DNA of 64,000 nucleotides from Pontiellaceae bacterium B12227 (lineage in GTDB: Bacteria > Verrucomicrobiota > Kiritimatiellia > Kiritimatiellales > Pontiellaceae), in the NCBI GenBank assembly GCA_029432775.1, contig JAROAZ010000003.1:186001-250000 (forward strand), read 5' to 3'. Below are positions 6,506 to 64,000 of the stretch, in pieces (the first letter of the stretch is position 1; each line of letters starts with the position of its first letter). The position numbers and the translations under genes were made by a program. The notes beneath the pieces are model-generated. The model had not been told where the DNA came from. It was given only the letters and a program-made list of their open reading frames with translations, and made no database searches.

Positions 6506-6520
6506 TTCCAGTGTCTGGAA
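6506..6520. repeat. Iterated palindrome TTCCAR-NNN-YTGGAA, intergenic copy
   Basis: TTCCAGTGTCTGGAA is an exact match to the 15-base palindrome that recurs through the window. It lies in the gap between the divergent fucosidase and EF-hand genes, 90 bases upstream of the fucosidase start and 110 bases upstream of the EF-hand gene start. Confidence 0.8.
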
Positions 6521-6630
6521 CCGGGCTTCATGAGGTGCCGGCCCGAATTCCGGTGGTGCTCCGTTCCTTCCATTGTCCCAAACCCCGGATCGGTAGCGTC
6601 TTGTGATCACACTACTATAGGAGAAGCATT

Positions 6631-7182
6631 ATGAAGACATACCGCACACTCACCGCCCTGCTGCTGATCATATTCACCGCGACGCTCTCATCCGCCCGCG
6701 CCGATAAAGACGAAAGTCGTAAAAAACCCGAACGTGCCAAGAAAGAGCATGCGAACAAGAAGGTGAAGAAGCAGCAGGAGCAAACCTGCGTCCAATGCGA
6801 GAAAAGTGCCGAGCAGGAAAAGGCCCGCCGTAAAACGGCTGCAGAAAAGCAGAAACGTGAAACATTGAAACGGTTCGACTTCGACCGCGATGGCAAACTC
6901 TCCATGCCCGAACGGCATAAAATGCAGATCGTCATGATGGAAGAGCGCGCCCGGCTGGAAAACTTCAAGCTTTCCGAAAAGCACCGTGCGGAGTCTTTCC
7001 AGCTCAATGAAAATATGAAACAGCGCCGCGAGCAGCTGGCGATGCGCCAGAAAGCTGAAATTGAGCGCGAAAAGCAGGCTAAAATCGAAGCCCAGAAAAA
7101 GCAGGCGAAGAAGGAAGCTGAAGCAAAGAAAAAGGCCGAACAGAAAAAAGCCCCGAAGCAGAAGAAACCGGCTAAAAAATAG
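6631..7182 (+). CDS. Secreted Lys/Glu-rich protein with one EF-hand
   Basis: A 183-residue protein with a signal peptide (MKTYRTLTALLLIIFTATLSSARA). The mature part is extremely rich in Lys, Glu, Gln and Ala and is predicted to be mostly long helix or coiled coil from about residue 100 to the end. One calcium-binding loop, FDFDRDGKLSMPE, lies near residue 86, and a CVQC pair sits at about residue 53. GGAG is placed seven bases before the ATG. Single EF-hand proteins of this kind are common and poorly characterised in PVC bacteria. I do not recognise a family and propose only a periplasmic or surface calcium-responsive structural role. Confidence 0.65.
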   Translation: MKTYRTLTALLLIIFTATLSSARADKDESRKKPERAKKEHANKKVKKQQEQTCVQCEKSAEQEKARRKTAAEKQKRETLKRFDFDRDGKLSMPERHKMQIVMMEERARLENFKLSEKHRAESFQLNENMKQRREQLAMRQKAEIEREKQAKIEAQKKQAKKEAEAKKKAEQKKAPKQKKPAKK

Positions 7183-7208
7183 AACCATTGTGCTCTGGAA
7201 ATAATAGG

Positions 7209-7264
7209 GCCACAGATGAACACCGATTACTTAACTTCGGTGTTCTTCCGTGTTTTTCAGTGGC
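7209..7264. repeat. Short-word inverted repeat (CCACAGATGAACAC type)
   Basis: The left arm reads GCCACAGATGAACACCGATT, and the right arm, read on the other strand, begins GCCACTGAAAAACACGGA and continues with AACACC. Both arms are built of the ten-base word AACACNGANN. The core pairs as an eight-base stem (GAACACCG at 7218-7225 with 7238-7245). It lies between two convergent genes and could end transcription in both directions, though no long T-run follows. Confidence 0.65.
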
Positions 7265-9418: not shown

Positions 9419-9433
9419 TTCCAAAGGTTGGAA
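9419..9433. repeat. Iterated palindrome TTCCAR-NNN-YTGGAA, intergenic copy
   Basis: TTCCAAAGGTTGGAA is a perfect six-base inverted repeat around a three-base centre. It lies about 85 bases before the CIA30-like gene and about 90 bases before the divergent membrane-protein gene. Confidence 0.8.
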
Positions 9434-11284: not shown

Positions 11285-11340
11285 TTCCAGAGATTGGAAC
11301 GTGCAGGACCGATTCCATGAGCTCACTTTCGAGATCGCGG
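11285..11340. repeat. 57-base intergenic element, copy 1 (begins with the iterated palindrome)
   Basis: The element starts with TTCCAGAGATTGGAA and aligns without gaps to 14365-14421: both continue TG.AGG.C.G.TTCC, then GAGC.C.C, and end TTCGAG.TCGCGG. Roughly two thirds of the bases after the palindrome are identical. It lies 90-145 bases upstream of the SLC13 permease gene. A single arm of an AATCCGTG-type word repeat follows at about 11352-11380. Confidence 0.5.
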
Positions 11341-13284: not shown

Positions 13285-14259
13285 TTATTGGTTACGACTT
13301 GCGGCTTGTTGATGCGCCTCGTCAACGATCACCCGGATTGCCTTCCACTCCTGTCGGAGCAGGGTTTTAAAGGCGATGATCGCTTCCTGCTGTGGTAGAA
13401 GCCGGTCGTTGGCACGGATTACTCCGGCCGCATTCTGATAGCTCCAGAGCAGATCAATGTATTCCGCACGGCGTTCCAGCGAAATCATCAGCGGTGGTTG
13501 GCCGCATCGCAGGAGCGGAAGATTGGCAATCAACCGGGCAACGCGGCCGTTTCCATCGAAGAACGGATGAACTCGAACAAAGGTCAGGTGGGCCCATGCA
13601 TAAACATTGATCGCCTTTGTCGGGGTGGTTGCCGTGTTGAGCTTCCGGTTGAACTCTTTCAGCCATCGGGTCATCAGCTTCGGAGTATCCAGAGGCGATG
13701 CATATTCCATATAAACCGGCCTGCCGTTTTTCACGCCCGTTGTACCGTTGTAATCCTGTTTCCAGTTTCCAACGGGACGCTGGTAGTCAATCGGGCTCTT
13801 TTGCATTACGCAGCGATGCAGGTTAAACAGATCTTCGCGCTCTACCTTTTCCTTTTTGATCAGGTCATAAATCAGTTCAATGGCCTTGGCATGCCCATAA
13901 ACCTCTTCGTGATCCTTCAGCGATTTTCCGCTGATGGTCAGGCCCAGTTCCAGCACCTTTACCGTTTCGCCCAATGTCAGCGTGTTGCCTTCAATGGCCG
14001 TCGAATCATAGGTCCATAAAGAGGTAATCTGTTTCAGCAGAGACTCGCGAATATCATTCGGAAGCCCCTCATAAAACAAGCGGCCCGGTTCTCCGTTTTT
14101 TTCCAATGACTGGATAAATTTAAAAACGCCGTTATGGCTGATCGTCAGGCCATATTTCCGGTTTAGTTTTTCGGCAATGCCCCGAAAGGATTCTCCGTGC
14201 TCCCGCATGGATTTAATCTCTTCAGCATAAGGACTTAGAATGGAAGGTATTGCTTTCAT
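13285..14259 (-). CDS. Fic-domain protein with N-terminal HTH and inhibitory helix
   Basis: A 324-residue protein. The Fic motif is HPFFDGNGRVARL at about residue 218, complete with the catalytic His and the nucleotide-binding Asn and Arg residues, so it should transfer AMP or another phosphate-linked group to a target hydroxyl. Upstream, STAIEGN near residue 86 is the inhibitory motif of class II Fic proteins, so activity is self-restrained. The first 50 residues resemble a helix-turn-helix (FRGIAEKLNRKYGLTISHNGVFKFIQ). The target is unknown. The stop lies 28 bases from the converging permease gene. One near-copy of the TTCCAR palindrome lies in the gene at 14101. Confidence 0.9.
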   Translation of the reverse strand: MKAIPSILSPYAEEIKSMREHGESFRGIAEKLNRKYGLTISHNGVFKFIQSLEKNGEPGRLFYEGLPNDIRESLLKQITSLWTYDSTAIEGNTLTLGETVKVLELGLTISGKSLKDHEEVYGHAKAIELIYDLIKKEKVEREDLFNLHRCVMQKSPIDYQRPVGNWKQDYNGTTGVKNGRPVYMEYASPLDTPKLMTRWLKEFNRKLNTATTPTKAINVYAWAHLTFVRVHPFFDGNGRVARLIANLPLLRCGQPPLMISLERRAEYIDLLWSYQNAAGVIRANDRLLPQQEAIIAFKTLLRQEWKAIRVIVDEAHQQAASRNQ

Positions 14260-14746
14260 CTGGCGGGAATATGCAACTGAATAACCGATATGTCACCCAT
14301 AAAAATGGTAAAATAAGAACAAAAACAGGTTACAGGGGGGGGGCTGTTGTCCTTGGCGGCTTTCTTCCAAGATTTGGAAAAATGTAGGGCGGGTTCCTCG
14401 AGCCCGCCTTCGAGGTCGCGGACCTCGGCTACAGATTAAGCCGTGTAAACTGGAGGAACGCTGACCTCAGCGTCCGCCACACGAGCGAAATCGGTCAACG
14501 GGGTGATTGCGCCGAATAGAAGCAATCACGCGTCTACGTTTTCTGAACCTAACTGGAGGGCGACCAGTCCAGCGGTATCGTTCCAATGAATGGAAATATT
14601 TCAATGAACGGGCAGATCCCATTTCTGATCCTTTTCTTTTTGCGGCTCCTCCCAGTATCCCGAAAACGAACACTTTTATTAACTGGTTTATCCATTGAGC
14701 CATGATTTCTCTTTTCTGTCAGAGATCACTCCAGTAACTTTGGAGG
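14260..14746. other. 487-base gene-free gap rich in repeats and hairpins
   Basis: No convincing gene is present. A seven-G run lies near 14335. The second copy of the 57-base element (14365-14421) starts with the exact palindrome TTCCAAGATTTGGAA and includes a hairpin formed by GGCGGGTTC and GAGCCCGCC. A further hairpin, CGCTGACCTCAGCG, is at 14460-14473. A near-copy of the palindrome (TTCCAATGAATGGAA) is at 14581. The promoter of the DUF488 gene must lie in the last 100 bases, but I see no strong -35/-10 pair. Confidence 0.6.
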
Positions 14747-17451: not shown

Positions 17452-18909
17452 TTACCCCACCAATTCAATCGCCTTCTCCAAACACGCTTCGATCATCTCT
17501 ATCGTCGGTTTTTTGATGAATTCGTTCTCGATGAGGTGGTCGGTGAGGTTGCGGGCTTCGTCGATTTCCTTTTTGGCCTGGGCGTAGACTTCGTCGCCGG
17601 TCATTTCAACGCGGGCGACGCCGTCTTCGATGGCCTGCAGGGCGACGGCTTTGGCGACGGCCGGGAAGGTCTGCGGCTCATCCATGAGCGGGGCGATGTA
17701 ATCCGGGGTCAGGCCGTTGGCTTCGGCGGACTCGGCAATGGCATACGCGGCGGCAATGGCCATGTTGTCGGTAATCTTTTTGGCTTTCACCAACAGTGCG
17801 CCTTTAAGCAGACCCGGGAAGCAGAGCGAGTTATTCACCTGGTTCGGGAAGTCGCCGCGTCCGGTGGCCACAATATAGGCGCCGGCGGCCTTCGCGGCGT
17901 GCGGATAGATTTCGGGCACGGGGTTGGCGCAGACGAAGCAGATGGCTTTGTCGGCCATGGAGGAAACCCATTCCGGTTTCACGGTGTTGGGGCCCGGGCG
18001 GGAGAGGGCAATCAGCACATCGGCACCTTTCATGGCTTCTTCGATGGAGTTGATTTTGTCGGGGTTGGTGCGCTGGCAGAGGTCCCACTTTTTATAGAAG
18101 GCTTTGTCGGCCTCGATATCGGCGCGGTCGGTGTGCAGTCCACCGCGGGAGTCGCACATGACCATTTTTTTCGGATCGCCGCCGGCCTGAATAATGAGGC
18201 TGGCAATGGTGGTGTTGGACGCGCCGGCGCCGAGCATGGCGATTTTGACATCTTCCAGTTTTTTGCCGGCCACCTTTACGGCGTTAATGAGTCCGGCGAG
18301 GGTGACGCAGCCGGTGCCCTGGGCATCGTCGTGCCAAACGGGGATTTCGCACTCTTCACGGAGGGTGTCGAGCACTTCAAAGCAGTTGGGTTGGGAAATA
18401 TCTTCCAGATTCACGGCGCCGACACTCGGTTGCAGCATTTTAACAAATTCGATGATTTTCTTGGCGTCGTGTTTGCCTTCGGCATTTTTGGAATCGACGC
18501 AGAGGGAGATGGCGTCGACGCCGCCGAGGTATTTCATGAGGTATGCTTTGCCTTCCATCACGCCGAGTCCGCCGGAGGCGCCGCAGTCGCCGTCGCCCAA
18601 CACGCGGGTGGAGTCGGAGACCACGGCCACGAGGTTGCCGCGGTTGGAGAGGTCGAACGAGCGTTCGGGATTATCGCGGATTTCGGTGGAGACCTTGGAG
18701 ACGCCGGGGGAATACCAGACGTTGAACCAGTTAAAACCGTAATATCCAGCCTTTGGAACGGTCTGCATCTTTCCGCCATAGAACTCGTGCATGGTTTCAG
18801 ATACTTCTTTAAGGAAAAGGGTTTTACCTTTCGCGATCTGGTCGGGCGTGAAGTCCGCCGGGAACAGCTCGTCGAGGTTTTCGAGTTTCAGATCTTTGAT
18901 TTTAGACAT
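17452..18909 (-). CDS. NAD(P)-dependent malic enzyme
   Basis: A 485-residue enzyme converting malate to pyruvate and CO2. The malic N-domain has WYSPGVSKVSTEI, VVSDSTRVLGDGDCGASGGLGVMEGKAYLMKYLGGVDA and the metal-site phrase VWHDDAQGTGCVTLAGLINA. The NAD-binding domain has the dinucleotide loop IAMLGAGASNTTIA and the closing phrase VATGRGDFPNQVNNSLCFPGLLKGAL. Whether NAD or NADP is preferred cannot be judged by eye. GGAG stands eight bases before the ATG and a perfect 18-base palindrome lies just upstream of that. It is transcribed away from the sdh-suc-gltA operon and would feed it with, or draw from it, C4 acids. Confidence 0.92.
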   Translation of the reverse strand: MSKIKDLKLENLDELFPADFTPDQIAKGKTLFLKEVSETMHEFYGGKMQTVPKAGYYGFNWFNVWYSPGVSKVSTEIRDNPERSFDLSNRGNLVAVVSDSTRVLGDGDCGASGGLGVMEGKAYLMKYLGGVDAISLCVDSKNAEGKHDAKKIIEFVKMLQPSVGAVNLEDISQPNCFEVLDTLREECEIPVWHDDAQGTGCVTLAGLINAVKVAGKKLEDVKIAMLGAGASNTTIASLIIQAGGDPKKMVMCDSRGGLHTDRADIEADKAFYKKWDLCQRTNPDKINSIEEAMKGADVLIALSRPGPNTVKPEWVSSMADKAICFVCANPVPEIYPHAAKAAGAYIVATGRGDFPNQVNNSLCFPGLLKGALLVKAKKITDNMAIAAAYAIAESAEANGLTPDYIAPLMDEPQTFPAVAKAVALQAIEDGVARVEMTGDEVYAQAKKEIDEARNLTDHLIENEFIKKPTIEMIEACLEKAIELVG

Positions 18910-19339
18910 GGGTTTCTCCAGGGAACGGCATGCCGTTCCAGTTAATGGTATTCGTTAATTGTTAATAGACCGGGCTCCACTCGGAAGCGGTTCCTCCTAC
19001 TAACCAACAATTACCTTTTTAACGGCCGCGCAGGCGGCTCTTATAAAGTGAAACCGCTGATTATGCCCACCGCTCCCCGCAAATCAACCCAACATCGTAC
19101 GGATTACACCGAATATAGGGATTTTCTGAATAAATCATAAATAGTACTAACTAGGTCTTGATTAGATTCCGCTACGTCTTTAGAATTGAACCATAAATCA
19201 GAACAAATATGTGGTATTTGATGCATGGGTACCCTTAGAGGAAAGAAATCTAAATAAAGCGGTTTGCAAAAGCATGAAAATGTTATAGGGATAATCATCT
19301 ATACGTAATAATCGGTCCTTGAAGTAGGGAATATAAGTA
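18910..19339. other. 430-base divergent gap between malic enzyme and sdhC
   Basis: This gap must hold promoters for both the malic enzyme gene and the sdh operon. The first 20 bases contain a perfect 18-base palindrome. Bases 18950-18970 carry TTAATTGTTAATAG, an A/T repeat. The stretch 19110-19335 is strongly AT-rich compared with its surroundings and contains no open frame that I accept. I do not see an unambiguous -35/-10 pair. Confidence 0.5.
18922..18939. promoter_or_regulatory. Perfect 18-base palindrome upstream of malic enzyme
   Basis: GGAACGGCATGCCGTTCC reads identically on both strands and begins 13 bases before the malic enzyme start. It may be an operator or a leader hairpin. A related but not identical hairpin (GGAACGCA...TGCGTTCC) lies at 27054-27080, so it could also be a dispersed element. 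Confidence 0.5.
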
Positions 19340-20002
19340 ATGAGTATTAAAACATCGATTCTATCATCGATCGGTCAAAAGCTGCTGCTGGCAACTTCCG
19401 GGCTGATCATGTTCCTCCTTTTCCTCATTCCGCACATGGGGGGGAATGTGCTGTTCCTGTTCGGGCCGGATATGTTCAATTCCTATGCCCACCACCTGCA
19501 TCAGCTGGTTCCGATCGTGATCGGTATTGAGCTGCTGATGCTGACCTCGATTTCGGTTCACATGATTATGGCATTCCGGGTGGTGCTGGCCAATCGCAAG
19601 GCGGCCGACAAGCGCCACACGCTGAAATCCTCCAAGGAGCGCTCGCTGGCGGCCAGGCTGATGCCGGTTTCGGGCATCATGATTTTTATCTTTATCGTTA
19701 AGCACCTGCTCGACTTCAAATTCTACGAAAAAGCGAAAACCACGCTGCATGGTGTTGAAACCTACGATGTCTACGCCATGGTACTTTCGCGCTTTCAGGG
19801 GGACCCCGTTCATCTGGTCTTTTATGTGCTCTTCATGGTGGCGGTTGGTTTCCACCTCAGTCACGCGCTGCAGAGTTCGATCCAGACGTACGGGATCTAT
19901 GTTCCGCGCGAAGGCAGCAAAATCAAGCTCATCAGTGCGGTCGTCGGCTGGGGCATGGCCGCCACCTTCGCCATCATTCCGATCTTCGCCTTCATTAAAT
20001 AA
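19340..20002 (+). CDS. sdhC: Succinate dehydrogenase cytochrome b subunit
   Basis: A 220-residue membrane subunit with five hydrophobic helices, the single-polypeptide (B-type) anchor seen in Bacteroidetes, epsilon-proteobacteria and Bacillus. Conserved elements are [28 protein letters not shown] near the N-terminus, YAHHLHQL, and IVKHLLDF and [16 protein letters not shown], whose His residues are the likely haem b ligands. It anchors SdhAB to the membrane and passes electrons to or from quinone. Such complexes may work as succinate:quinone reductase or fumarate reductase; the sequence alone does not decide. It starts the sdhCAB-sucCD-gltA gene string. Confidence 0.92.
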
Positions 20003-20006
20003 CCAC

Positions 20007-20021
20007 TTCCAAGGACTGGAA
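20007..20021. repeat. Iterated palindrome overlapping the sdhA ribosome binding site
   Basis: TTCCAAGGACTGGAA fits the palindrome exactly. Its AAGGA (20011-20015) is also the only ribosome binding site for sdhA, seven bases before the ATG at 20023. A hairpin of the palindrome would put part of that site in the loop and stem. Confidence 0.75.
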
Positions 20022-20022
20022 C

Positions 20023-21936
20023 ATGAAACTCGACGCAAAAATTCCTGAAGGCCCGATGGCCGAAAAGTGGACCAACCACAAATTTAAAGTGAAGCTGGTA
20101 AATCCGGCCAATAAACGGAAGCACAAGGTGATTGTGGTCGGTTCCGGTCTGGCGGGTGCCTCCGCCGCGGCCACGATGTCTGAGCTGGGCTATAAGGTGC
20201 ACTGCTTCACCTATTCTGATTCCCCGCGCCGCGCGCACTCGATTGCTGCGCAGGGCGGAATCAACGCCGCCAAGAACTATCCCAACGATGGCGATTCCAT
20301 TTACCGCCTCTTTTACGACACCGTCAAAGGCGGCGACTTCCGCTCCCGCGAAGCCAACGTGCATCGTCTGGCGGAATGTTCGAACCAGATTATTGACCAC
20401 TGTGTGGCGCAGGGGATTCCCTTTGCCCGCGAATACGGCGGCTATCTGGACAATCGCTCTTTCGGCGGTGCACAGGTTTCCCGTACGTTTTATGCCCGCG
20501 GTCAGACGGGGCAGCAGCTCCTGCTCGGTGCCTACGGCGCGCTCTCGAAAGAGATTAAAAAGGGCGGCGTTACGATGTACACCCGTGAAGAGGTGATTGA
20601 TGTCGTCGTGATCGACGGGCAGGCGCGCGGAATTATTTCCCGCAACCTCGTCACCGGCGAGCTGACGCGTCATGAAGCCGATGCGGTCGTACTGGCCACC
20701 GGCGGCTACGGCAACGTGTTCTTCCTTTCCACCAATGCCATGAACTGCAACGCGAGTGCCGCATGGCGGGCCTACAAAAAAGGTGCCGCGTTTGCCAACC
20801 CTTGCTACACGCAGATCCACCCGACCTGCATTCCGGTGCATGGCGAATATCAGTCGAAGCTGACCCTGATGTCCGAGTCGCTGCGTAACGACGGCCGCAT
20901 CTGGGTGCCGAAAGCCAAAGGCGACAAGCGTCCGGCCAATCAGATTCCGGAAGACGAGCGCGACTATTATCTGGAACGCAAATATCCAAGCTTTGGAAAC
21001 CTGGTGCCGCGCGACCTCGCCTCCCGTAATGCGAAACAGGTTTGCGACGAAGGGCGCGGCGTCGGCCCGACCGGAAACGCCGTCTATCTCGATTTTGCCG
21101 AAGCTATTGAGCGTCTGGGCAAGGATGCGATTGTCGCCAAATACGGGAACCTGTTCGAAATGTATAACCGCATTACCGACGAAGATCCGTACACGACGCC
21201 GATGATGATTTACCCGGCCGTGCATTACACCATGGGCGGCCTTTGGGTGGACTACAACCTGATGACCTCGCTGCCCGGGCTGTACGCGATCGGCGAATGC
21301 AACTTTTCCGACCATGGCGCGAACCGCCTCGGAGCATCCGCGCTCATGCAGGGGCTGGCCGATGGATACTTCGTTATTCCGAACACGATTAATGATTATC
21401 TCGCCTCCAATAAAATCACCCCTGTTGGAACCGACCACGAAGCGTTTGCTGAGGCCGAAAAAGCGGCGCAGGACAAACTCGATAAACTGCTCGCGGTCAA
21501 CGGCAGCCGTACGGTCGATGACTTCCATAAAGAGCTTGGACTCCTGCTGTGGGAAAACTGCGGCATGGGACGGAATGAAAAGGGCCTGAAAGAAGCGCTC
21601 GAAAAAATTCCGAAGATCCGCGAGGCCTTCTGGAAAGACGTCAACGTTCCGGGCTCGGCCGACGATTTAAACCAGGCGCTGGAAAAAGCCAACCGCGTGG
21701 CCGACTTCATGGAGTTTGCCGAGCTGATGGTAAAGGACGCGCTGATGCGGGCTGAATCCTGCGGTGGCCACTTCCGCGAAGAGAGTCAGACGGAAGAAGG
21801 GGAAGCCCTGCGTAACGACGAAGAGTTCTGTTTCGTGGGAGCCTGGGAGTTCCAGGGATTGGAAAACGAGCCGATCCTTCATAAAGAAGCGTTGGAGTTC
21901 GAAGAGGTTCACCTGACGCAGAGGTCCTACAAATGA
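20023..21936 (+). CDS. sdhA: Succinate dehydrogenase / fumarate reductase flavoprotein subunit
   Basis: A 637-residue flavoprotein of full length. The dinucleotide loop is [17 protein letters not shown]; the FAD-linked His is in [18 protein letters not shown]; the active-site region is [19 protein letters not shown]; and the FAD-binding close is [25 protein letters not shown]. The long, Lys-poor C-terminus with [16 protein letters not shown] is typical of the Bacteroidetes-type enzyme, matching the single-subunit anchor. It oxidises succinate to fumarate or the reverse. It carries two copies of the TTCCAR palindrome, one exact (21850) and one near-exact (20984). Confidence 0.95.
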
Positions 21937-21940
21937 TGTT

Positions 21941-22026
21941 GACCACGGAATTATTTAACAGAAGAGCGCAAAGTTCGCTAAGCCCGGCTGACTTCATCCT
22001 TTGCGTACTTTGCGATCTTGGTGTGG
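21941..22026. repeat. Short-word inverted repeat in the sdhA-sdhB gap
   Basis: The left part contains GAGCGCAAAGTTCGCTAAG. The right part, read on the other strand, contains GATCGCAAAGTACGCAAAG. Both arms also start near CCAC. The word (CGCAAAGT) is repeated and inverted around an unrelated centre, as in the other elements of this class. It sits inside the operon and would form a structured intercistronic region. Confidence 0.65.
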
Positions 22027-22043
22027 AAAAATAGGAAGTAGTT

Positions 22044-23978: not shown

Positions 23979-23983
23979 GAATG

Positions 23984-24057
23984 GCCACAAAGAGGCACAA
24001 AAAGCACGAAGACCATTCCCGCCGGGAGTCTTTGTGTCTCTTGTGCCTCTTCGTGGC
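23984..24057. repeat. Short-word inverted repeat in the sucC-sucD gap
   Basis: The two arms are nearly identical when one is reversed: GCCACAAAGAGGCACAAAAA against GCCACGAAGAGGCACAAGAG, both then continuing to GAAGAC or AAAGAC. About 25 of 30 bases agree. The words CACAAAGAG and CACGAAGAG recur within each arm. The arms can form a long hairpin around a centre near 24020. Confidence 0.75.
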
Positions 24058-24080
24058 GATAAAATAGGTAGGACAGGATT

Positions 24081-24959: not shown

Positions 24960-24974
24960 TTGGAGATCATTATT

Positions 24975-26813: not shown

Positions 26814-27163
26814 TTCTGCTCCTCAACTTCCGGATAAAGATAAAGAAGGAACCGCGGATGCACACGGATAAACACTGATTAATACGGAGATATTTTCGGG
26901 AGGGTTCGATTCCTTCTGAGGCGATGGCAATGCGGGATAAGCCGGATTGGAACCCTGCAAATTCCAATCTCTGGAAGCTGCTGTTTTGATTTTCCGAATA
27001 TTGGAAGTTGGAATTTGTTTTAGGTTCAGCGATTGGGGATTGGATATTCCAAAGGGCGGAACGCATGGTGCGTTCCGCCCTTCGGTAAAAGGTGAACGGG
27101 CCGCCAAGGGGGAAGAGGCGACCCGTTCTGTTGGGGTGGGGTGTTTCTAGGGGAATTGGTATT
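26814..27163. other. 350-base gap packed with repeat elements
   Basis: No gene is accepted here. In order it holds a one-armed word repeat of the AACACNGAT type (about 26850-26890), a tRNA T-arm-like segment GGGTTCGATTCC near 26902, the exact palindrome TTCCAATCTCTGGAA (26962-26976), a near-copy at 26992-27006, and two hairpins (27054-27080 and 27094-27128). It lies upstream of the zinc-ribbon gene and downstream of tpx. Confidence 0.65.
27054..27080. terminator. GC-rich hairpin downstream of tpx
   Basis: GGGCGGAACGCA and its complement pair perfectly around TGG. In the minus direction it is followed by TTTGG only, so it is a weak terminator at best. A second hairpin with arms GAACGGG and CCCGTTC (27094-27128) lies closer to the tpx stop and is followed by CCTTTT in the minus direction. 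Together they probably end tpx transcription. Confidence 0.5.
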
Positions 27164-29633: not shown

Positions 29634-29636
29634 ACC

Positions 29637-34070: not shown

Positions 34071-34840
34071 AGCGCAACGCTTTCGGCCGCATTGGCCGGA
34101 ATCCAGCAGGTCTGTCCGTCGGCCAGCCGAATGTGCCACCAGCTGCCGCGCTCTTCCAGGCATTGGAACTCGGTGCCCGAATGCAGCGGATCCAGAAATG
34201 CCGGGGCATACATGGTGCCGTCGCCCTTGCGCGCAACCATCTCTTTGGCGACAATCACGCCGGGTCGAGCACGGTGTTTCATGACGCTTTCCGTAATCAG
34301 CGAAGCCAGCAGCACAAGCGAGAGTGCACCGGTTGCCGCAAAAGTAATCCGCACTTCCTTCCGGGAGGAGCGCTCCATCCAGAACCACGAGCCCCACAGG
34401 ACCAGCCAAAGCGCGGCAAAAAGCCACCATCTGAATGCGGTGGATGTGTTCAGGTGCCAGCCCAGCAGTTTATCGGCCAGCGGGTGCGGTTCCTTTGCCG
34501 GAATCAGATCGGTTCGCAGGTCCAGCGCAGTCTTGAGGTTGTGTTTCAGGTCCGCATTGTTCGGCATATACGTTTCCGCCCGGCGATAGTTCAGAATGGC
34601 GCGGCCCACATCGCCCGCCATGAACCAGCTGTTTCCGAGTGTGTAGAAAAGCTGACCGTTGCGAATGCCCTCTTCCTCAACCAGGAATTCATACTGCTCG
34701 GCCGCCTGGGCATAGCCCGCAGAATTCGTAGCCGACCGGAATTTTGTATGGGCAATTTCCAGGGTCTGGGTTTGGTAATCTTTTCCAACCGCTGGAAGCG
34801 CGGCCAATGCAATGAATAGGAGGGTGACTCGAAAACTCAT
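34067..34840 (-). CDS. batE: BatE-like TPR and SH3-domain protein
   Basis: A 257-residue membrane protein closing the Bat operon. It has a signal peptide, TPR-like helices (YAQAAEQYEFLVEEEG, then GQLFYTLGNSWFMAGDVGRAILNYRRAETYMPNNAD), two transmembrane segments (about 140-160 and 170-190) and a C-terminal bacterial SH3 domain with GSWWHIRLADGQTCWIPA. This is the BatE arrangement. It overlaps batD by four bases (ATGA). It contains two exact TTCCAR palindromes, one in the signal-peptide codons (34783) and one in the SH3 region (34154). Confidence 0.8.
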   Translation of the reverse strand: MSFRVTLLFIALAALPAVGKDYQTQTLEIAHTKFRSATNSAGYAQAAEQYEFLVEEEGIRNGQLFYTLGNSWFMAGDVGRAILNYRRAETYMPNNADLKHNLKTALDLRTDLIPAKEPHPLADKLLGWHLNTSTAFRWWLFAALWLVLWGSWFWMERSSRKEVRITFAATGALSLVLLASLITESVMKHRARPGVIVAKEMVARKGDGTMYAPAFLDPLHSGTEFQCLEERGSWWHIRLADGQTCWIPANAAESVAL

Positions 34841-36642
34841 TTCAATTTCCTCTCAACAGTTTTAACAATGCGGGTTGCTTCGCGGACGATTTTGCGGGCC
34901 TCGCCTTTTTCATCGTAGCTGGTGGTAAAGCGGTAGGCCTCGCACAGCGCAAACAGGTGTTTGAGTTCTTCCAATGTCTGGAAGTCCGCTCCGGCCTCAA
35001 TCAGTGCACCTTCGGCGTCGCGATAGGAAAGAGCGCCCGGAGTCAGGTGCAGCCGATCGCCGAGATAGGCGCGCAGCACCTGATCCAGATCTTCATAAAT
35101 TTCGCTCTTCATTGAATGGGTGCAAATGTGAGCCGCATTCTTTTTGAACACCTTAAAGGCCCGGGCCGCCTGGGCGGTGCGGTGAATGTGGTGCTTCTTT
35201 TCTCCCAGCAGAGAAATCAATGAAAAGCCGATGAACAGCAGGGGCGGCAGGAGCAGCAACAGCAATACGGCGAGCGGACTCGCCCAACCGAACAGCGGGC
35301 GCCGCTGCGGATGCAGCATATCCGGATTTTCATAGTTGTGGCGGATACCCTCATCCACAGTACGCAGGCGGTTCTGATAGGTCGTTCCGCCAAACACCCC
35401 GATCTCTTCCGCCGGCGTTACCGTGATGGGAATAGCGGCTGACTCAATGTTGACATACTGATTGGAAGCCGGATTAAAAAAGGCCAGCTGTATCGGCGGG
35501 ATTTCGTTGTTGCCGGTGGAGAGGGGCCGAATGGTCTGGGTGTAGATTTTTGATTTACCTTCCCGCTGAGGCAGAGAGCGGTCGGACGGAATCTCAAACC
35601 GGTTCACCAGATAAGGCTGATACCGCAGCGGTTCAAAGAAGATATTCTCCATATAACCGGCGGCCGTAATTTTCACCGTCAATGTAATCGGTTCGCCCAC
35701 GCGCACCTGCGTCGGTTCGGCCGAAACGGCAATGGAATAGTCGCCGACCATGCCGTTAAAGAGGTCGGGCCGGCCTTCGGTCGGCAGCGGTTTGACTTCA
35801 AGTTCAATCGGTTTGGATTCGGTGAAGATGCGGGTCCACTTATCGCCCGCCACATTCTGATCGAAGAACGTATTGTCGAAATAAGCCGGATACTGGAATG
35901 CCGAGCGGCGGGTCTTGCTGTTCACCACTTTTTCATTCTCGGCCGCGCAGAGGAGGGTGGCGGGGGAAATTACAATCTGACCACTCTTCTTGGGGATGAG
36001 CAGTTTGCTGAAGTTCAGCGCCTGGTGTTGGGTGCCTTCAACCTGATAACTTCTGCGGGTGGCCAGCACGCGTGTGCCGTGAACCGGAAGCCCGGTCGTC
36101 TGGGCACCCTTTTCTTTCTGCGGCTCGTAGAGTTCCAGAATCTGGAAACGGTCGTCGTTCAAAATCGGAAAGTGGAAGTCGACCGCTTTAATGGCGCCGA
36201 ACTGATAGGTGCTGTCCCAGCTGGTAGTCAGCAGAACCGGTTCGCCCACATAGACCGACCGGGCTTCAACGGTCTGTTCCAGCTTCATCCGGTCGGAGCT
36301 TTGCGGTTTATTGGCTTTAATGGAAACGGGCTTGGTATAGGCCTGACCGAAACGCAGCGCAGGCACCGAAAGGCTGCCCTCCTGTTTTGCCCGCAGCGCA
36401 AAACGGTAGAACCAGGTATTGGTTTCGCTGGTCTTCTGTCCGTTGATGATCGTGGTGGCGTTGAAGTCCGGCATCATTACTTTGGGCAAACCGGGTTGCT
36501 GGTCGGCTTTGACCACCACATCCAGATTGAAGATCTGCCCGAGATACACATTGGTTTCCGATGCCGTCGCGACGGCATAGAAATTGGTTGAGGCCGAAGC
36601 TGTCCCAGTTACCAGTGCTAATATTAAGAATAGCCTTTTCAT
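34837..36642 (-). CDS. batD: BatD-family oxygen-tolerance protein
   Basis: A 601-residue protein. The start at 36642 gives a clean signal peptide (MKRLFLILALVTGTASAS); the open frame upstream to 36933 is an artefact overlapping the TPR gene. Tandem immunoglobulin-like domains follow (VATASETNVYLGQIFNLDVVV, VEARSVYVGEPVLLTTSWD, ISAEPTQVRVGEPITLTVKI), then a transmembrane helix near residue 460 and a cytoplasmic tail. BatD is thought to assemble with BatA and BatB at the membrane. It starts one base after the TPR gene stop. Confidence 0.88.
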   Translation of the reverse strand: MKRLFLILALVTGTASASTNFYAVATASETNVYLGQIFNLDVVVKADQQPGLPKVMMPDFNATTIINGQKTSETNTWFYRFALRAKQEGSLSVPALRFGQAYTKPVSIKANKPQSSDRMKLEQTVEARSVYVGEPVLLTTSWDSTYQFGAIKAVDFHFPILNDDRFQILELYEPQKEKGAQTTGLPVHGTRVLATRRSYQVEGTQHQALNFSKLLIPKKSGQIVISPATLLCAAENEKVVNSKTRRSAFQYPAYFDNTFFDQNVAGDKWTRIFTESKPIELEVKPLPTEGRPDLFNGMVGDYSIAVSAEPTQVRVGEPITLTVKITAAGYMENIFFEPLRYQPYLVNRFEIPSDRSLPQREGKSKIYTQTIRPLSTGNNEIPPIQLAFFNPASNQYVNIESAAIPITVTPAEEIGVFGGTTYQNRLRTVDEGIRHNYENPDMLHPQRRPLFGWASPLAVLLLLLLPPLLFIGFSLISLLGEKKHHIHRTAQAARAFKVFKKNAAHICTHSMKSEIYEDLDQVLRAYLGDRLHLTPGALSYRDAEGALIEAGADFQTLEELKHLFALCEAYRFTTSYDEKGEARKIVREATRIVKTVERKLK

Positions 36643-40232: not shown

Positions 40233-41161
40233 GATGGCTCCTCCGGTGTTTCGTTGATGAATTTAATGGTGAACTGTTCCATCTCTTCGGGAAAGTGGTC
40301 TGAAACGATATGCGAATAGCGGGCCTGCTCGCTGATGGTCAGGAATTCCTCGAGCTTGATCCGGCGCCCGAGCAGCGCTTTTTTGGGAAGGGCGGCACAC
40401 ACTTCGCCCAGCGTTTTTCCAGCCATTGAAACGTTGAAATAGTTTTCGACGAATGCCAGGAGAATTTCATTGAGAGCCTGAATTTTTTCCATCTCGTCAT
40501 GCGGCAGCTCCTGCAGGGCTGCGCGGGCCTTCTGGTGCGGGGTGAGCACCACCATGCGTTTCGGGCGGCGAATCAGTTTGATGCTGAAGATCAGGAGGAT
40601 CAGGCCGGCGGCGGTGGCGCCGGCAATGAGTCCGAGCTGTTTGCGCTGCTCTTCCTCGGGCAGCAGCTCCAGTGGATCCGTAATGTCCTTGATCTCGAAC
40701 CCTTCCACTCCGTCCGGGAGCAGGGAGGTCACGTGTACATCGACCGGTGCGGTTTCGAGGGTGATCGTGCCGGCGGATATTTCGAGTGGCTGGAGGCGAA
40801 CGCGGCCGGGCAGGGCGGGCAGCAGGGTCCAGACCTGGCGGTGCAGCACTTTTTTATTCGGCAGGCTCTGAACCGGTTCGGAATAGGAGTCTCCGATGGA
40901 GAGCGGGGCCACCAGACTTCCAAGGTTCGGAAGTATGACCTCGGTGTCGGCCGGTGCATGGACATCGACCATCAGCTGAATTTTTCCAGAGGTTGGAATA
41001 TTGGTTTCGCTGAGAGTTACAATGGCGGTGATGGAACGATGGCGGTATTGCTGGGAATAGACCGGCTCGGAAAACGTCGGCGTGACCTTTTCTTTTTCCG
41101 GCAGACAGCCTGCGAGCAGGAGCGCGGGGATGAGCAATAATCTGTGGTTCCAGATGGACAT
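40229..41161 (-). CDS. DUF4381-like lipoprotein of the Bat operon
   Basis: A 310-residue protein with a lipoprotein signal ending LLLAGC, an extracytoplasmic beta-domain (residues 25-165), a transmembrane helix near 180 (LGLIAGATAAGLILLIFSI) and a cytoplasmic helical tail with ALQELPHDEMEKIQALNEILLAFVENYF. Proteins in this operon position are usually DUF4381-like partners of BatA. The lipobox followed by an internal helix is unusual topology and may simply be a signal peptide with a chance Cys. It overlaps neighbours by four and one bases. Confidence 0.65.
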   Translation of the reverse strand: MSIWNHRLLLIPALLLAGCLPEKEKVTPTFSEPVYSQQYRHRSITAIVTLSETNIPTSGKIQLMVDVHAPADTEVILPNLGSLVAPLSIGDSYSEPVQSLPNKKVLHRQVWTLLPALPGRVRLQPLEISAGTITLETAPVDVHVTSLLPDGVEGFEIKDITDPLELLPEEEQRKQLGLIAGATAAGLILLIFSIKLIRRPKRMVVLTPHQKARAALQELPHDEMEKIQALNEILLAFVENYFNVSMAGKTLGEVCAALPKKALLGRRIKLEEFLTISEQARYSHIVSDHFPEEMEQFTIKFINETPEEPS

Positions 41162-55634: not shown

Positions 55635-57257
55635 ATGGGTTTGCTGGATGGATTTGTATTTAAAGTCGCGGAGCAGGAGTGGGAATTTGAGGCAATTCAT
55701 GCTTTGAATTATAAAACATTTGTAGAAGAAATTCCGCAGCACGGCACCAACCAGGAAAAGAAACTGGTTGATAAATTCCACGATCAAAATACCTATATCC
55801 TCTGCGTTCACGAAGAGCGCAAAGAGCTCGCCGGAATGATTGCCTATCGCGATCAGCGGCCCTTCTCGCTCGACAGTAAGCTGGAAAATATCGATTCCTA
55901 TCTTCCCGATGCCAATAAGATTTGTGAAATCCGGCTGCTTTCCGTGGAGGAAGCCTATCGCTACACCCGAATCTCACAAGGGCTGATTGCTTTGCTGACA
56001 GAATACGCGGATGCCCAGGGGTGCGACCTCTTTATCATTTCAGGAACCGTGAGGCAGATTAAGCTGTATAAATATCTCGGTTTCAAGCCGTTCGGTCCGC
56101 TGGTGGGAAGTGAAGGGGCTGAGTATCAGCCCATGTACGCCCCCATCGACGCCTATGAGGATCTGCAGAACCGTTCACGTTCCTTCAGTAAAGGAATGCC
56201 GGAACTCGCAAACGACGACACCATGCTTTTCAACTTCCTGCCCGGCCCGGTCGATTTCGGGAAGCAGGTGCTGGATGTCTATAATGATAAACCGTGCTCC
56301 CATCGCGGCGATGTCTTTGTGGGCGACTTCCAGAAAGTCCGTAAATTACTGTGCGATCTTTCCGGGGCCGAACAGGTCCAGGTGCTCATGGGACCGGGCA
56401 CCTTGGCAAACGATGCTGTGGCCGGGCAGATTTCTCTGCTGTGCTCCACCGGGCTGATTCTGATCAGCGGTGAGTTCGGCCGGCGGCTGGTAAGGAATGC
56501 CAATGGTGCCAAGCTGTTTTTCCATACCTTGGAAATCCCGGAAGGTCAGGCCTTCCAACGTTCGGAAATCGAGAAAACCCTGAAGGATCATCCCGAGATT
56601 GAGTGGATCTGGGGAACGCACTGTGAAACCTCCACCGGAGTGCTCAACGATATTGAGATGCTTCAGGAAGTCAGTAATGCGCATGGTGCGAAACTCTGCC
56701 TCGACTGCATCAGCTCGCTCGGAACCGTACCCGTCGACCTTTCAGGGGTCTATCTCGCTTCCGGTACCAGTGGAAAAGGCCTCGCGTCAATCGCCGGGCT
56801 CTCCATGGTTTTTCATAATCACGACCTTGAATCTGCGCCCGACGACCTGCCCTGTGTGCTCGATCTGGGGTACTATCAGGAACACGCCGGCATTCCGTTC
56901 ACGATTCAATCGAATCTGGTGTATGCGTTGCTCGCCGCGCTCCAGTCGCATAACTGGGATGAGCGCTTCGAAGAGGTGCGCGGCTGGTCAAAGAGCATTC
57001 GCCGGAAGCTAGCCGAAATCGATGCTCCCATTCTTGCGCCCGACTCCTGTGCCATGCCGGCCGTCGTAACCATTGCGCTGCCGGAGGTCCATTCATCATC
57101 GAGCATCGGCGACATACTGAAAAGCCACGGCGTTTTAATCAGCTACCGAAGCCACTACCTGCTGGAGCGCAACTGGATTCAGGCCTGTATGATGGGCGCC
57201 GAACACAAGCCCACTGAAAAGTTTGTCCGCCTGCTCAAAAAAGAGCTGAAGAAGTAG
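55635..57257 (+). CDS. GNAT acyltransferase fused to class V aminotransferase
   Basis: A 540-residue two-domain protein. Residues 1 to about 170 resemble the acyl-carrier-using GNAT group (NYKTFVEEIPQ, DKFHDQNTYILCVHE, ICEIRLLSVEEAYRY, YKYLGFKPFG). Residues about 195-540 are a fold-type I aminotransferase: FLPGPVD, GPGTLANDAVA, GTHCETSTGV, CLDCISSLGTVPVDLS and the cofactor Lys381 in ASGTSGKGLASIAG. It starts directly after the PlsY-like stop, with AAAGGAGG just before. The pairing suggests that an amine made by the second domain could be N- or O-acylated by the first, to give an amino-lipid. That is inference. Confidence 0.8.
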   Translation: MGLLDGFVFKVAEQEWEFEAIHALNYKTFVEEIPQHGTNQEKKLVDKFHDQNTYILCVHEERKELAGMIAYRDQRPFSLDSKLENIDSYLPDANKICEIRLLSVEEAYRYTRISQGLIALLTEYADAQGCDLFIISGTVRQIKLYKYLGFKPFGPLVGSEGAEYQPMYAPIDAYEDLQNRSRSFSKGMPELANDDTMLFNFLPGPVDFGKQVLDVYNDKPCSHRGDVFVGDFQKVRKLLCDLSGAEQVQVLMGPGTLANDAVAGQISLLCSTGLILISGEFGRRLVRNANGAKLFFHTLEIPEGQAFQRSEIEKTLKDHPEIEWIWGTHCETSTGVLNDIEMLQEVSNAHGAKLCLDCISSLGTVPVDLSGVYLASGTSGKGLASIAGLSMVFHNHDLESAPDDLPCVLDLGYYQEHAGIPFTIQSNLVYALLAALQSHNWDERFEEVRGWSKSIRRKLAEIDAPILAPDSCAMPAVVTIALPEVHSSSSIGDILKSHGVLISYRSHYLLERNWIQACMMGAEHKPTEKFVRLLKKELKK

Positions 57258-58521: not shown

Positions 58522-60180
58522 TTACCAACCAATGGCAATTCCGGTGAAAAGCGTGGCGGGTCGCGGCTTCAGGCCGGGAACGGACTGAAAGTTGGAGCCC
58601 CACAGGTTATCCACCAGAAACGAAAGACGCACATTTTTGGCGAAGCGCGGATCATAATGCAAGCCCAGTGATGCGATTGCCCCGAAATCATCGCTCGTCC
58701 GCACCGCATTATCGGCCTGCCAACGGGTCGTCTGCGCAAACTGAACCGCAAATTCATTCAGGAACTGCCAATAGGCGGAAAGGTTCAGCATGTGCTCCGG
58801 ATAGTCCGTTTCATAGAGGCCGTTCTCAAGCTCGTTGTCTTTATGAATCCACTGATAATAGGCCTTCAGCTGCAGGTTTTCGGAAGGATAGTAGCTGATG
58901 GCGGAATCGATGCCGGCCACATTCAAACGTCCGAGATCGGTCGCCGTTCCACCGATCCAGTCGTTGGCATTTTCCAGGGTTCGGAAAAAAGTGCCCACCC
59001 GCCAGTCGCAGCTCGCCGAAAGAAAGTGCTTAAAACCCAGCTCCGTATTCTGCGACTGCTGTTGCTGAAGAGCAGCATTTCCAGTCATAAACGGCGTTGC
59101 GGCATACAGCAGCTGATAATCCGGCTGCTGTTCGGTTTCAGAGTAGGAAAGATAAAGCCGCCCGTTATCCGAAACAAACCAGTCAATTCCGGCCATTGGA
59201 AGGAAGTCCGCACTTTCCGAGGTCTGGAAAACGGAGTTCAGTCCGGCCTTCAACGTAACCCGTTCAAACCGCACTTCCGGCATAACCAGAAAAGAGCTGC
59301 GGGTGCGGTCGTCCTTCTTCGTGTCGCCGCTGACCCGTTCATGTTCCAGATCGCCGCGCAGATTCAGCGCAATGTTCTGCACCTCCATCGTCCGGCCTTC
59401 AACCGCGAAGCCGGCATTGCGCGAGGTGATATCCTGATAAAATGCAGAAGTTGGAACCGTATATTGATCCCGCAGGTCGCGATAGGAGGCCGTGGCCCGA
59501 AAATAGGCATCGTCCAGGTCGCCTTTGGTCGCGCTGCCAAGAATAAGGCCGTCGTCAAGCTGCTGTTCGGCCTCGACGGTCGATGGGGCCTCGTAATAAC
59601 CCTGCGCACCGAACTCTTTCGACTGGCTGGCCAGCATGGCATCGAACTGCCAGTCATCGTCCGTGATAAATTGCAGGAAAGCCCCGCCGGTAAAACGCTC
59701 CAGGTCATTCGGTGAGTAGTCAACCCGCCGCGCCTTTTCCCAGTCGAGATAGCCGCCCACATTTTCAGCGCTGCCATACGTCGTTGCCGCATAGCGTTCC
59801 TCTGTTCCAACGCCCACGGCATGGTGGTTTGCATAGCTCAGCGGCTGGGTGTTGAAATGTGCGGTGCCGACCAGATGCCCCGAGACATTGTTCAGCCCGG
59901 TTCCAAGGGTTGGAACCGAAAGCTGACTTCCAATCATTGGAAGTTCGGAATTATAGTGGCTCGACCACGCGCTTTTCAACCGAAGTCCGTTAATTGCCAG
60001 CCCGGAACCGGTATAACTCCCGCCACGAATTGAAAGATCGTGCTGTGCCAGCCCCTGCGAATTGACCAGAATTTCCGGTTGTTCATTCAGTTTCTGATCT
60101 ATCGTTCGGACATCGGCAAACTGCGCGAGGCAGGATGTCACTCCGAGCAGGCAGAATGAAAAAGCACGGCGGATCGTCAT
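58522..60180 (-). CDS. TonB-dependent-receptor-like outer-membrane protein in the biotin operon
   Basis: A 552-residue beta-barrel with a signal peptide (SFCLLGVTSCLAQ). The N-terminus has a plug-like region (TIDQKLNEQPEILVNSQGLAQHDLSIRGGSYTGSGLAINGLRL), then alternating barrel strands and a C-terminal aromatic residue (LFTGIAIGW). It is short for a TonB-dependent receptor (usually over 600 residues) and no clear TonB box is seen. The ATG overlaps the bioA stop (TAATG), so it is cotranslated with biotin synthesis and may import biotin or a precursor. Two exact TTCCAR palindromes lie 27 bases apart at 59901 and 59928. Confidence 0.75.
   Translation of the reverse strand: MTIRRAFSFCLLGVTSCLAQFADVRTIDQKLNEQPEILVNSQGLAQHDLSIRGGSYTGSGLAINGLRLKSAWSSHYNSELPMIGSQLSVPTLGTGLNNVSGHLVGTAHFNTQPLSYANHHAVGVGTEERYAATTYGSAENVGGYLDWEKARRVDYSPNDLERFTGGAFLQFITDDDWQFDAMLASQSKEFGAQGYYEAPSTVEAEQQLDDGLILGSATKGDLDDAYFRATASYRDLRDQYTVPTSAFYQDITSRNAGFAVEGRTMEVQNIALNLRGDLEHERVSGDTKKDDRTRSSFLVMPEVRFERVTLKAGLNSVFQTSESADFLPMAGIDWFVSDNGRLYLSYSETEQQPDYQLLYAATPFMTGNAALQQQQSQNTELGFKHFLSASCDWRVGTFFRTLENANDWIGGTATDLGRLNVAGIDSAISYYPSENLQLKAYYQWIHKDNELENGLYETDYPEHMLNLSAYWQFLNEFAVQFAQTTRWQADNAVRTSDDFGAIASLGLHYDPRFAKNVRLSFLVDNLWGSNFQSVPGLKPRPATLFTGIAIGW
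59901..59942. repeat. Two exact copies of the iterated palindrome, 27 bases apart
   Basis: TTCCAAGGGTTGGAA (59901-59915) and TTCCAATCATTGGAA (59928-59942) lie within the plug region of the TonB-type gene. On the coding strand they encode VPTLGT and LPMIGS, in the same frame. Confidence 0.85.
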
Positions 60181-62541: not shown

Positions 62542-62542
62542 T

Positions 62543-63307
62543 TTAGATTCTCAGCTGGTTCACGATCTTTTCGACTTCCGCGACGACGGGGATCGGGAGG
62601 TCGTTGTATTTGGGGGCGGGGTTGGCGAGTTGTGGGCAGTAGGGGATGGTTCCAAGGATTGGAACTTTGCCGAACTGCTCGATGGTGTTGCCGTTATCCT
62701 CTTCGATAAAGGTGAATTCCTGATCGGTACTGGCCACAAAAACCACGCCGGCAATATCAAGCCCGTCGGACCGGAGGGTCCGGATGGAAAGCAGCGTGTG
62801 GTTAATGGTGCCGAGACCCGGACGGGCCGCAATCAGTATGGGAAGGCGCAAGGCCTGCATCAGGTCGAGCATGGTTTCACGACGGTTGAGCGGAACCACA
62901 ATGCCGCCGGCTCCTTCGGCCAAAACAAACTCATAGTCCGCAGCCAGTGTGCGGGCTGCAATTACCATTTCGGCGATCTCGATTTCAGTTCCGGCCATCT
63001 CAGCGGCCAGATGCGGCGAGCACGCCGGTTGAAATTGATAGGGCGACATATTTTGATACTCTTCCGGCGATACGTTCATCGATGCCATTGCAAGGCTGTA
63101 GTCAAGGTCGGGGACGGAGAAAGCTGGAAACTTGACGCTTGATGCTTGGTTTTCCGAGTGTCCAGTATCCAGTTTCAAGCATCCCGTCTGCGCCGGTTTC
63201 ATGGGGGCGGCATTGATTTTACGGCATCTCAACTCGGCCAGCAGCAGGGCGCTCAGGGCCGTTTTTCCAACATCCGTGTCCGTTCCGGTAATAAATAGTC
63301 CGTTCAT
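62543..63307 (-). CDS. bioD: Dethiobiotin synthetase with an in-frame repeat insert
   Basis: A 254-residue enzyme closing the ureido ring of dethiobiotin with ATP and CO2. Walker A is FITGTDTDVGKTALSALLL, the substrate Lys is in APMKPAQTG (Lys37), SPHLAAE and LAEGAGGIVVPL follow, and GTINHTLLSI is typical. Between TGC and VPDLDYSLA there are about 20 extra residues (43-63), encoded by a short-word inverted repeat, that I do not expect in the family. The start at 63307 is preferred to 63316. The next gene, the DUF1016 nuclease, starts one base after the stop. One exact TTCCAR palindrome lies at 62650. Confidence 0.93.
   Translation of the reverse strand: MNGLFITGTDTDVGKTALSALLLAELRCRKINAAPMKPAQTGCLKLDTGHSENQASSVKFPAFSVPDLDYSLAMASMNVSPEEYQNMSPYQFQPACSPHLAAEMAGTEIEIAEMVIAARTLAADYEFVLAEGAGGIVVPLNRRETMLDLMQALRLPILIAARPGLGTINHTLLSIRTLRSDGLDIAGVVFVASTDQEFTFIEEDNGNTIEQFGKVPILGTIPYCPQLANPAPKYNDLPIPVVAEVEKIVNQLRI
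63123..63184. repeat. Heptamer-word inverted repeat inside bioD
   Basis: On the plus strand three seven-base words run GGAAACT, TGACGCT, TGATGCT. On the opposite strand four words run GGATGCT, TGAAACT, GGATACT, GGACACT. The two word groups face each other around about ten bases. The insert keeps the reading frame and contains no stop in the frame used. Confidence 0.75.
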
Positions 63308-63373
63308 GGGGACCAATTAACACGATTTAGTAACTGGTGCTCAAAACAATTCGGAGTCTGTCGGGAGACGAGA

Positions 63374-64000
63374 TCAGATGTGGCGGCCGATGAAACGGAG
63401 TGTGTCGCGAAGATGTTCAATCCAGTATTCCCACGCATGCTCGCCCGGAAATTCCTGATAACTATGCTCAATTCCGGCTGCTTCCAGCTGTTGATGTAGC
63501 TCCCGGTTTTCTTCGATTAAAATATCATCCACACCGCAGTCGAACCGCAAAGGGGGCAGTTGATCCCGATTGGTTTGCATCCAGTGAATTGCGGACAGGC
63601 CCCGATCGCCCGCCAGTTTATAGTCGGTCAGCGGCTCCTCCACAAATTTTTCCAACTGTTGGAAGTCGGTAATGGAAGAGTGGGCTGAAATGGCGGAATA
63701 CTGCTCCGCATATTTTGCACCGAGCCGCAACGCGCCATAGCCACCCATCGAAAGGCCGGCGATAAAGTGCTTCGAGTTCCCGGAAACAGCCGGACAGTCT
63801 TCCATGACCGCCGCCGGAACGTCATCAACAATCCATGATTCGTAGTCGGCCATTTTATGGGGCAGATATCCGCTGCCCTCGCGCCAAAGCCCGTCGGAAG
63901 GCATGGCGATGGCAATCGGCCGGATTTCTCCACTTTGGATCATTTCATGGGCCGTCACATGCGCGCCGCCCTTGAACGGCCAGACCCAGTGGCTTCCATA
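63374..64000 (-). CDS. Esterase of the alpha/beta-hydrolase fold, 5' end cut by window edge
   Basis: The frame is open to base 64000, so the start is outside the window; the GTG at 63958 is internal. The visible 208 residues have the putative-esterase pattern of S-formylglutathione hydrolase or feruloyl esterase relatives: GLSMGGYGALRLGAKYAEQYSAISAHS with the nucleophile Ser, FDCGVDDILIEENRELHQ with the acid Asp, and FPGEHAWEYW with the His. The segment WPFKGGAHVTAHEMIQSGEIRPIAIAMPSDG precedes these. The substrate is likely an acyl ester. One exact TTCCAR palindrome lies at 63650, encoding FQQLE. Confidence 0.85.
   Translation of the reverse strand, partial: YGSHWVWPFKGGAHVTAHEMIQSGEIRPIAIAMPSDGLWREGSGYLPHKMADYESWIVDDVPAAVMEDCPAVSGNSKHFIAGLSMGGYGALRLGAKYAEQYSAISAHSSITDFQQLEKFVEEPLTDYKLAGDRGLSAIHWMQTNRDQLPPLRFDCGVDDILIEENRELHQQLEAAGIEHSYQEFPGEHAWEYWIEHLRDTLRFIGRHI

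Follow-up and report, generated by a model that had tools for sequence, protein, structure and literature searches.

Scattered through a 64,000-nucleotide stretch of Pontiellaceae bacterium B12227 (contig JAROAZ010000003.1, positions 186,001 to 250,000 of the forward strand; hereafter the window) is a short gapped palindrome, TTCCARNNNYTGGAA, and we hold with moderate confidence that each copy is an operator of one homodimeric, cooperative, chromosome-wide binding protein, which is probably nucleoid-associated. The window contains 16 exact copies where dinucleotide shuffles predict about 0.01, and the whole genome from which it comes (G000; 6,294,789 bp in 206 contigs) contains 2,106, compared with 3 for the same pattern written backwards. 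A preliminary description of this DNA had listed the 16 copies and named nine near-copies; every exact copy was found where it had been placed, each of the nine is one mismatch away, and the genome-wide count is far from the near-chance figure that the description had named beforehand as the sign of a spurious pattern. Throughout, the remaining G-numbers are compared genomes and L-numbers are stretches that were read.

The motif is sharply defined in both its bases and its spacing. With mismatches allowed, the window has 16, 24 and 20 sites at zero, one and two changes, and the control AAGGTYNNNRACCTT has 0, 1 and 7. The half-site layout TTCCAN5TGGAA occurs 18 times in the window, where gaps of 0-4 and 6-11 bases give 0-1 each, and in 450 kb of G000 (two contigs) the five-base gap alone is enriched, with 156 copies against 6 or fewer for any other gap up to 39. 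From these 156 copies the site can be refined to tTTCCA(A/G)nSn(T/C)TGGAAa. The central base is C or G (S) in 94%, T is favoured and A scarce (4%) just outside, and position 6 is A in 73% and G in 23%, varying approximately independently of its mirror base (AT 81, GT 37, AC 24, GC 5). Seven data sets, drawn from G001, G028, G037, array genomes of other families and viral contigs, return a similar profile, with a C or G centre at 0.92-1.00 and A just outside at 0-0.12. The excess of one-mismatch sites over other-gap controls is largest at position 1 (T to A 16.5-fold, T to C 6.9, T to G 4.5) and position 5 (A to G 11.8-fold, A to C 4.3, A to T 2.4); in the TCC core, T2 to C reaches 4.7-fold (9 sites) and C3 to A 4.5-fold (6 sites), and the other seven of the nine changes lie at 0.4-2.2-fold. 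We read this spectrum as a binding-specificity profile and not as a cloud of decayed copies. Rfam and transfer RNA scans of the window and of L018 gave no match, and full-text literature searches returned no paper on the motif under its spellings and instances (including TTCCANNNNNTGGAA and TTCCAN5TGGAA) and none on over-represented palindromes in Verrucomicrobi-.

The site is maintained by selection on the DNA itself rather than on the protein, as had been argued from the window alone. When 450 kb of G000 was compared with a 200-kb part of a single G001 contig, which gave 86 kb of alignment at 78% identity, all ten half-site bases were retained at 40 of 44 sites, while the same layout elsewhere is retained in 11.3% of cases. 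Identity at these sites is 0.91 at the centre, 0.61-0.73 at the other spacer positions and 0.61-0.75 over the five nearest bases on each side, against an average of 0.78. A second count, of 45 sites, found all ten bases retained at 21 of 21 coding sites with an unchanged peptide (background 20.6%), at 14 of 17 coding sites with a changed peptide (background 3.3%) and at 5 of the remaining 7. Because the half-sites are retained even where the peptide has changed, codon preference of the encoded proteins is excluded; preference for FQxLE peptides, which the preliminary description had raised as a possible explanation of all copies, cannot account for them since FQxLE arises in frame 0 only. In the reverse direction, 39 of 56 G001 sites are retained in G000, and the more distant G027 and G024 retain all ten bases at 12 of 23 sites (background 7.3%) and 4 of 12 (background 6.7%), respectively.

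Also borne out was the statement that copies fall in gaps and in genes and, within genes, in different frames. In the 450 kb of G000, 112 of the 156 copies lie in called genes (frames 58/36/18) and 44 outside, the latter being an upper bound since the simple gene caller misses some genes; one four-site 'intergenic' G000 stretch, for instance, contains an uncalled open frame of 394 codons, glycosyltransferase-like by eye, to which some of the 44 belong. For G000 and G001 together, 203 sites are in called genes, at 0.36 per kb (frames 107/71/25), and gaps carry 0.55-1.33 per kb, with divergent gaps highest (1.33 vs 0.55-0.87). The favoured gap type varies among genomes, on small numbers: in G028 the convergent gaps are densest, at 5.6 per kb (11 sites) vs 1.5 in divergent ones (3 sites), and in G161, G064 and G219 the convergent gaps hold 0 sites in 2.5 kb. 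An ordinary transcription regulator with a very large regulon, for which each copy would be an operator, would suit the density of divergent gaps in G000 and G001 and the phased arrays described below, which look like cooperative operators, but most sites in these two genomes are inside genes, the densest gaps of G028 are convergent, and no common function was found among the 20 genes scanned beside arrays, which include SecA, EF-Ts, QueF, shikimate kinase, RNase P and one Fur-domain protein. Among the remaining sites of sparse genomes, read as open-reading-frame maps, there was likewise no sign of a core regulon. Such a regulator seems to us improbable, and a classical promoter regulon is unlikely.

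Neighbouring copies are, in some genomes, spaced by whole turns of the helix. Taking adjacent copies 16-110 bp apart, and with the period chosen after looking, the phasing statistic R is 0.92 at 10.45 bp in G028 (31 pairs) and 0.93 in G037 (17 pairs), values that 0 of 100,000 simulations equalled in either case; the two genomes are one family member and one order member. The G028 pairs are 21/22, 30-32, 42/43, 52, 62, 71/73 and 105 bp apart, and those of G037 mostly share these spacings; G027 and G024, with 1 and 2 pairs, have too few for phasing. Pairs 30-32 bp apart were present in 18 of 20 chosen genomes and absent from the reversed control in all of them, the two genomes without such pairs (G012 and G023) both belonging to the window's genus. 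Clusters of three sites close together occurred in 7 of 10 genomes searched, with 0 for the control and none in G027, G024 or G006. Other families carry 31-bp arrays of 2-7 units, and the array stretches, mostly picked for holding sites, have 80 sites outside and 10 inside called genes. In G161 (67-69% GC), the first spacing in the AT-rich arrays of L119, L121, L124 and L125, and in long ones also the last, is 22 bp, and the inner spacings are 30-31 bp, which suggests capped multi-site elements.

Spacers recur between the arrays of G057, and two G219 arrays (L134, 6976 and 8488) have flanks in common; some arrays are thus duplicates of each other. Spread by copying, together with the preference of G028 sites for convergent gaps, would suit an element acting in RNA, that is, a hairpin of the repetitive extragenic palindromic (REP) or terminator kind, copied or selected at the transcript level. 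However, five sites fold barely better than shuffles (z -0.6 to -1.8), the G-C combination at positions 6 and 10, which would favour a hairpin most, is found in only 5 of 156 copies, and the half-sites are retained identical rather than covarying. Moreover, for the five coding sites in window 21850-36147 the 26 comparisons with relatives differ by substitution, 2 of the 26 also containing a gap, and the convergent gaps of G161, G064 and G219 are empty of sites over their 2.5 kb. We regard a transcript-level element as very unlikely.

Helically spaced pairs of this kind are also carried by nine stretches from eight viral contigs (L209-L217). Ten proteins from five of the nine stretches were scanned, leaving out L211, L212, L215, L216 and the 422-aa frame after the L210 array, and terminase families matched one protein each in L209, L214 and L217, located 0.8 kb from the array, 1.7 kb from the array and directly adjoining it, respectively.

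From equal half-sites one turn apart, the preference at the dyad, the tolerance at the edges and the same-face spacing, we infer a homodimeric protein of the helix-turn-helix type that touches its neighbours. Its two identical half-sites, each with a TCC core and a preferred outer T and inner A, would lie in successive major grooves around the C/G dyad, and in dense genomes the protein would have a site roughly every 2-3 kb, both in genes and between them. Dimers on the same face could touch when whole helical turns apart, and clusters and 31-bp arrays would thereby become cooperative patches. Sites this frequent, most of them within genes in G000 and G001, speak for a function across the whole chromosome; most likely the protein would be nucleoid-associated, architectural or concerned with segregation, and not a regulator working promoter by promoter. 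Sites would be gained and retained by point substitution under selection and would fade once a lineage loses the need for them. Among the roles that the preliminary description had proposed, a nucleoid or chromosome-wide binding protein fits best, and methylation, uptake and a regulon fit less well. A bolder version can be put forth only tentatively: that a class of bacteria carries a sequence-specific chromosomal protein that does not resemble the known nucleoid proteins. As a cooperative homodimer it would have about one high-specificity site of 15-19 bp every 2-3 kb in dense genomes, with helical-turn spacing in clusters, repeatedly gained and lost within a genus; viruses bearing phased arrays of the same sort, some near terminase genes, would exploit it.

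The distribution among relatives is wide and uneven. Counts in the 28 genomes of the window's genus run from 1 to 2,106; G028, of the same family, has 1,555 copies in 3.3 Mb, and fourteen genomes of the same order have 162-1,049. Across 387 genomes drawn from the phylum, enrichment is limited to the window's class and patchy there, with 9 or fewer copies in other classes (G138, from one of these, has 52 of the control and 0 of the motif), and eighteen named outgroup genomes have 0-2. On a midpoint-rooted tree of 27 genomes, built from about 7 kb of partly covered tricarboxylic acid (TCA) operon DNA and without G015, which had no coverage, the dense genomes are mixed in with the sparse ones, suggesting that the motif was lost or gained more than once. 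Repeated A/T tracts have reportedly been described in a Kiritimatiella genome.

Several proteins were followed across the 28 genus genomes. Since the site resembles a 7-1-7 Fur/PerR box, PF01475 was searched. A match over some 95-100 positions of the profile, next to a fuller one, was taken as a second, PerR-like Fur paralogue (that of G010 is partial), and on this reading the paralogue is in 10 of the 11 densest genomes and 0 of the 17 others (Fisher p=8e-7; rank test p=4e-5); G025 has only an 80-aa weak Fur match, and in each of G011, G016 and G019 there is one weaker, unclassified Fur match. Five of the ten paralogues were read as proteins (L268, L269, L270, L274 and L276), their neighbours by eye including a KatG-like frame in L276 and a rubrerythrin-like frame in L268, where the paralogue is preceded by what is presumably a PerR-type box. 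The motif was in none of the five 260-bp stretches upstream. Given the peroxide-defence-like neighbours, the box in L268 and the lack of the motif upstream, the paralogue was rejected as the binder; its association with density is confounded with genome size (p=0.009), and it is better read as a marker of lifestyle, perhaps of oxygen tolerance. A Noc-like second chromosomal ParB was likewise rejected, as it does not track motif density: ParB_N has one strong match in 27 of the 28 genomes, extra weaker ones only in G004 (sparse), G005 and G021, and no match in G002 (72% complete).

The motif could also be a DNA uptake sequence, a word that a competence receptor prefers and that molecular drive spreads, and its density, core-gene location and turnover are like those of uptake sequences. 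ComEC occurs in 10 of the 11 densest genomes but also in 14 of the 17 others and does not track density, no uptake word is known to be palindromic, and phased arrays and a dyad preference would be left unexplained; we think uptake improbable. Somewhat less remote, though still unlikely, is an orphan DNA methyltransferase or restriction-modification system, with methylation-linked selection or repair retaining the site as might be the case for the highly iterated palindrome 1 (HIP1) of cyanobacteria. The inner CCAN5TGG has the form of a gapped palindrome known from restriction systems. In cyanobacteria, HIPs track methyltransferases (PMC4390886). In the genus, PF01555 methyltransferases exceed the cut-off in 8 of the 11 densest genomes vs 3 of the 17 others (Fisher p=0.006). 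However, this last association is confounded with genome size (p=0.013). Among dense genomes, G005 has no match, G009 and G007 have sub-cut-off matches only and G000 has a partial match of 73 positions, and the sparse G015 has four matches, two of them over cut-off. Outside the full site, CCAN5TGG exceeds control only 1.5-fold (265 vs 179, sd 49), and the dyad and spacer preferences and the phasing would be unexpected of a methyltransferase.

Several observations weigh against a cooperative, chromosome-wide binding protein. The search for the binder, in which ParB, Fur, ComEC and PF01555 were checked by presence only, identified no protein, and both the Fur paralogue and PF01555 are commoner in dense genomes. 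Density within the single genus ranges from 0.8 to 387 per Mb, which would be odd for an essential architectural protein. Phasing is weak in G000 itself (17 pairs, R=0.47, p=0.02) and was not seen in G001, a genus member (18 pairs, R=0.10, p=0.83), and for the four genomes pooled (83 pairs; p about 3e-14 near 10.4 bp with an offset of about zero, or about 3e-6 once the 30-33 bp class is removed) the period was already known when p was computed. In the first five stretches of G028, 37 of 55 sites lie outside called genes, and it may be that the proteins of genomes with arrays and of those with dispersed sites are related but distinct. Finally, a chromosome-scale pattern was not seen in G024, the one genome sampled for it (29 sites, 20 samples); in this 4.1-Mb single contig, GC skew puts the terminus at about 1.2-1.4 Mb and the origin at about 3.3-3.5 Mb, and of the 20 samples 6 surround the terminus so defined, with 11 of the 29 sites, a small sample, lying in them.

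The sites of the window, with their state in relatives where it was read, are as follows.

6506..6520, strand., exact site TTCCAGTGTCTGGAA, outside called genes
9419..9433, strand., exact site, outside called genes
11285..11299, strand., exact site upstream of the CitMHS transporter gene
14365..14379, strand., exact site, outside called genes
14581..14595, strand., TTCCAN5TGGAA site, position 10 not Y (C or T)
20007..20021, strand., exact site directly before the succinate dehydrogenase flavoprotein gene
21850..21864, strand., exact site within the succinate dehydrogenase flavoprotein gene
26962..26976, strand., exact site, outside called genes
34154..34168, strand., exact site in a gene; half-sites retained and spacer altered in G001 and G027
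34783..34797, strand., exact site in a gene; half-sites retained and spacer altered in G001 and G027, peptide altered in G001
34969..34983, strand., exact site in the BatD-like gene; half-sites retained in G001, not in G027 or G024
36133..36147, strand., exact site in the BatD-like gene; half-sites retained in G001 and G024, not in G027
40984..40998, strand., exact site, identical in G001
56520..56534, strand., TTCCAN5TGGAA site not fitting the R/Y (purine/pyrimidine) consensus; half-sites retained in G001
59901..59915, strand., exact site; half-sites altered in G001
59928..59942, strand., exact site, 27 bp from its neighbour and hence out of helical phase; retained in G001
62650..62664, strand., exact site, identical in G001
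63650..63664, strand., exact site

The non-coding site at 20007 has no alignable counterpart in the 14 genus members compared there, a set without G001. Window 17452-26261 is a TCA-cycle cluster encoding malic enzyme, SdhA, SdhB, SucC, SucD and citrate synthase, and a Fic/DOC-domain protein (13285-14259) adjoins two motif copies. Citrate synthase matches from named genomes do not exceed 60% identity and bear mixed labels.

Highly iterated palindromes have long been without an agreed mechanism (PMC4390886). The present motif offers mechanical clues, in the form of fixed half-site spacing, a C/G dyad, helical phasing and conservation that is independent of the peptide, as well as a natural comparison set in one genus spanning 0.8 to 387 per Mb. 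Finding the responsible protein would test whether dense sequence-specific sites organise some bacterial chromosomes.

REP units and bacterial interspersed mosaic elements are found between genes, and their RNA folds into strong hairpins. In layout they are resembled by the intergenic multi-palindrome arrays of the sister families, whereas the unit here is a weak hairpin with operator-like phasing that also occurs singly inside genes. The sites of Noc, SlmA and MatP are palindromic operators of chromosome-wide DNA-binding dimers, present in tens of copies that avoid or mark the terminus; here there are about 2,000 copies, neither avoidance nor marking of the terminus was seen in 29 sampled sites, and no second ParB tracks the motif. 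The 18-nt palindrome of Caldithrix abyssi (PMC5317091) is likewise an over-represented short palindrome of a non-model bacterium lying outside longer repeats, but it has 38 exact copies that are essentially intergenic and strand-biased, in contrast to thousands of copies that are mostly genic in G000. HIP1 (GCGATCGC), too, is a short palindrome that recurs in genes and gaps alike, is patchy in relatives and has an unsettled function (PMC4390886). The comparison with HIP1 drawn in the preliminary description holds for this scattered, genic and patchy behaviour but not for make-up: TTCCAN5TGGAA is a different word, neither GCGATCGC nor a close derivative, and is 15-19 bp, gapped and of odd length with a C or G centre, its copies form helical-turn clusters in some genomes, and its link with methyltransferases is partial in the one family tested.

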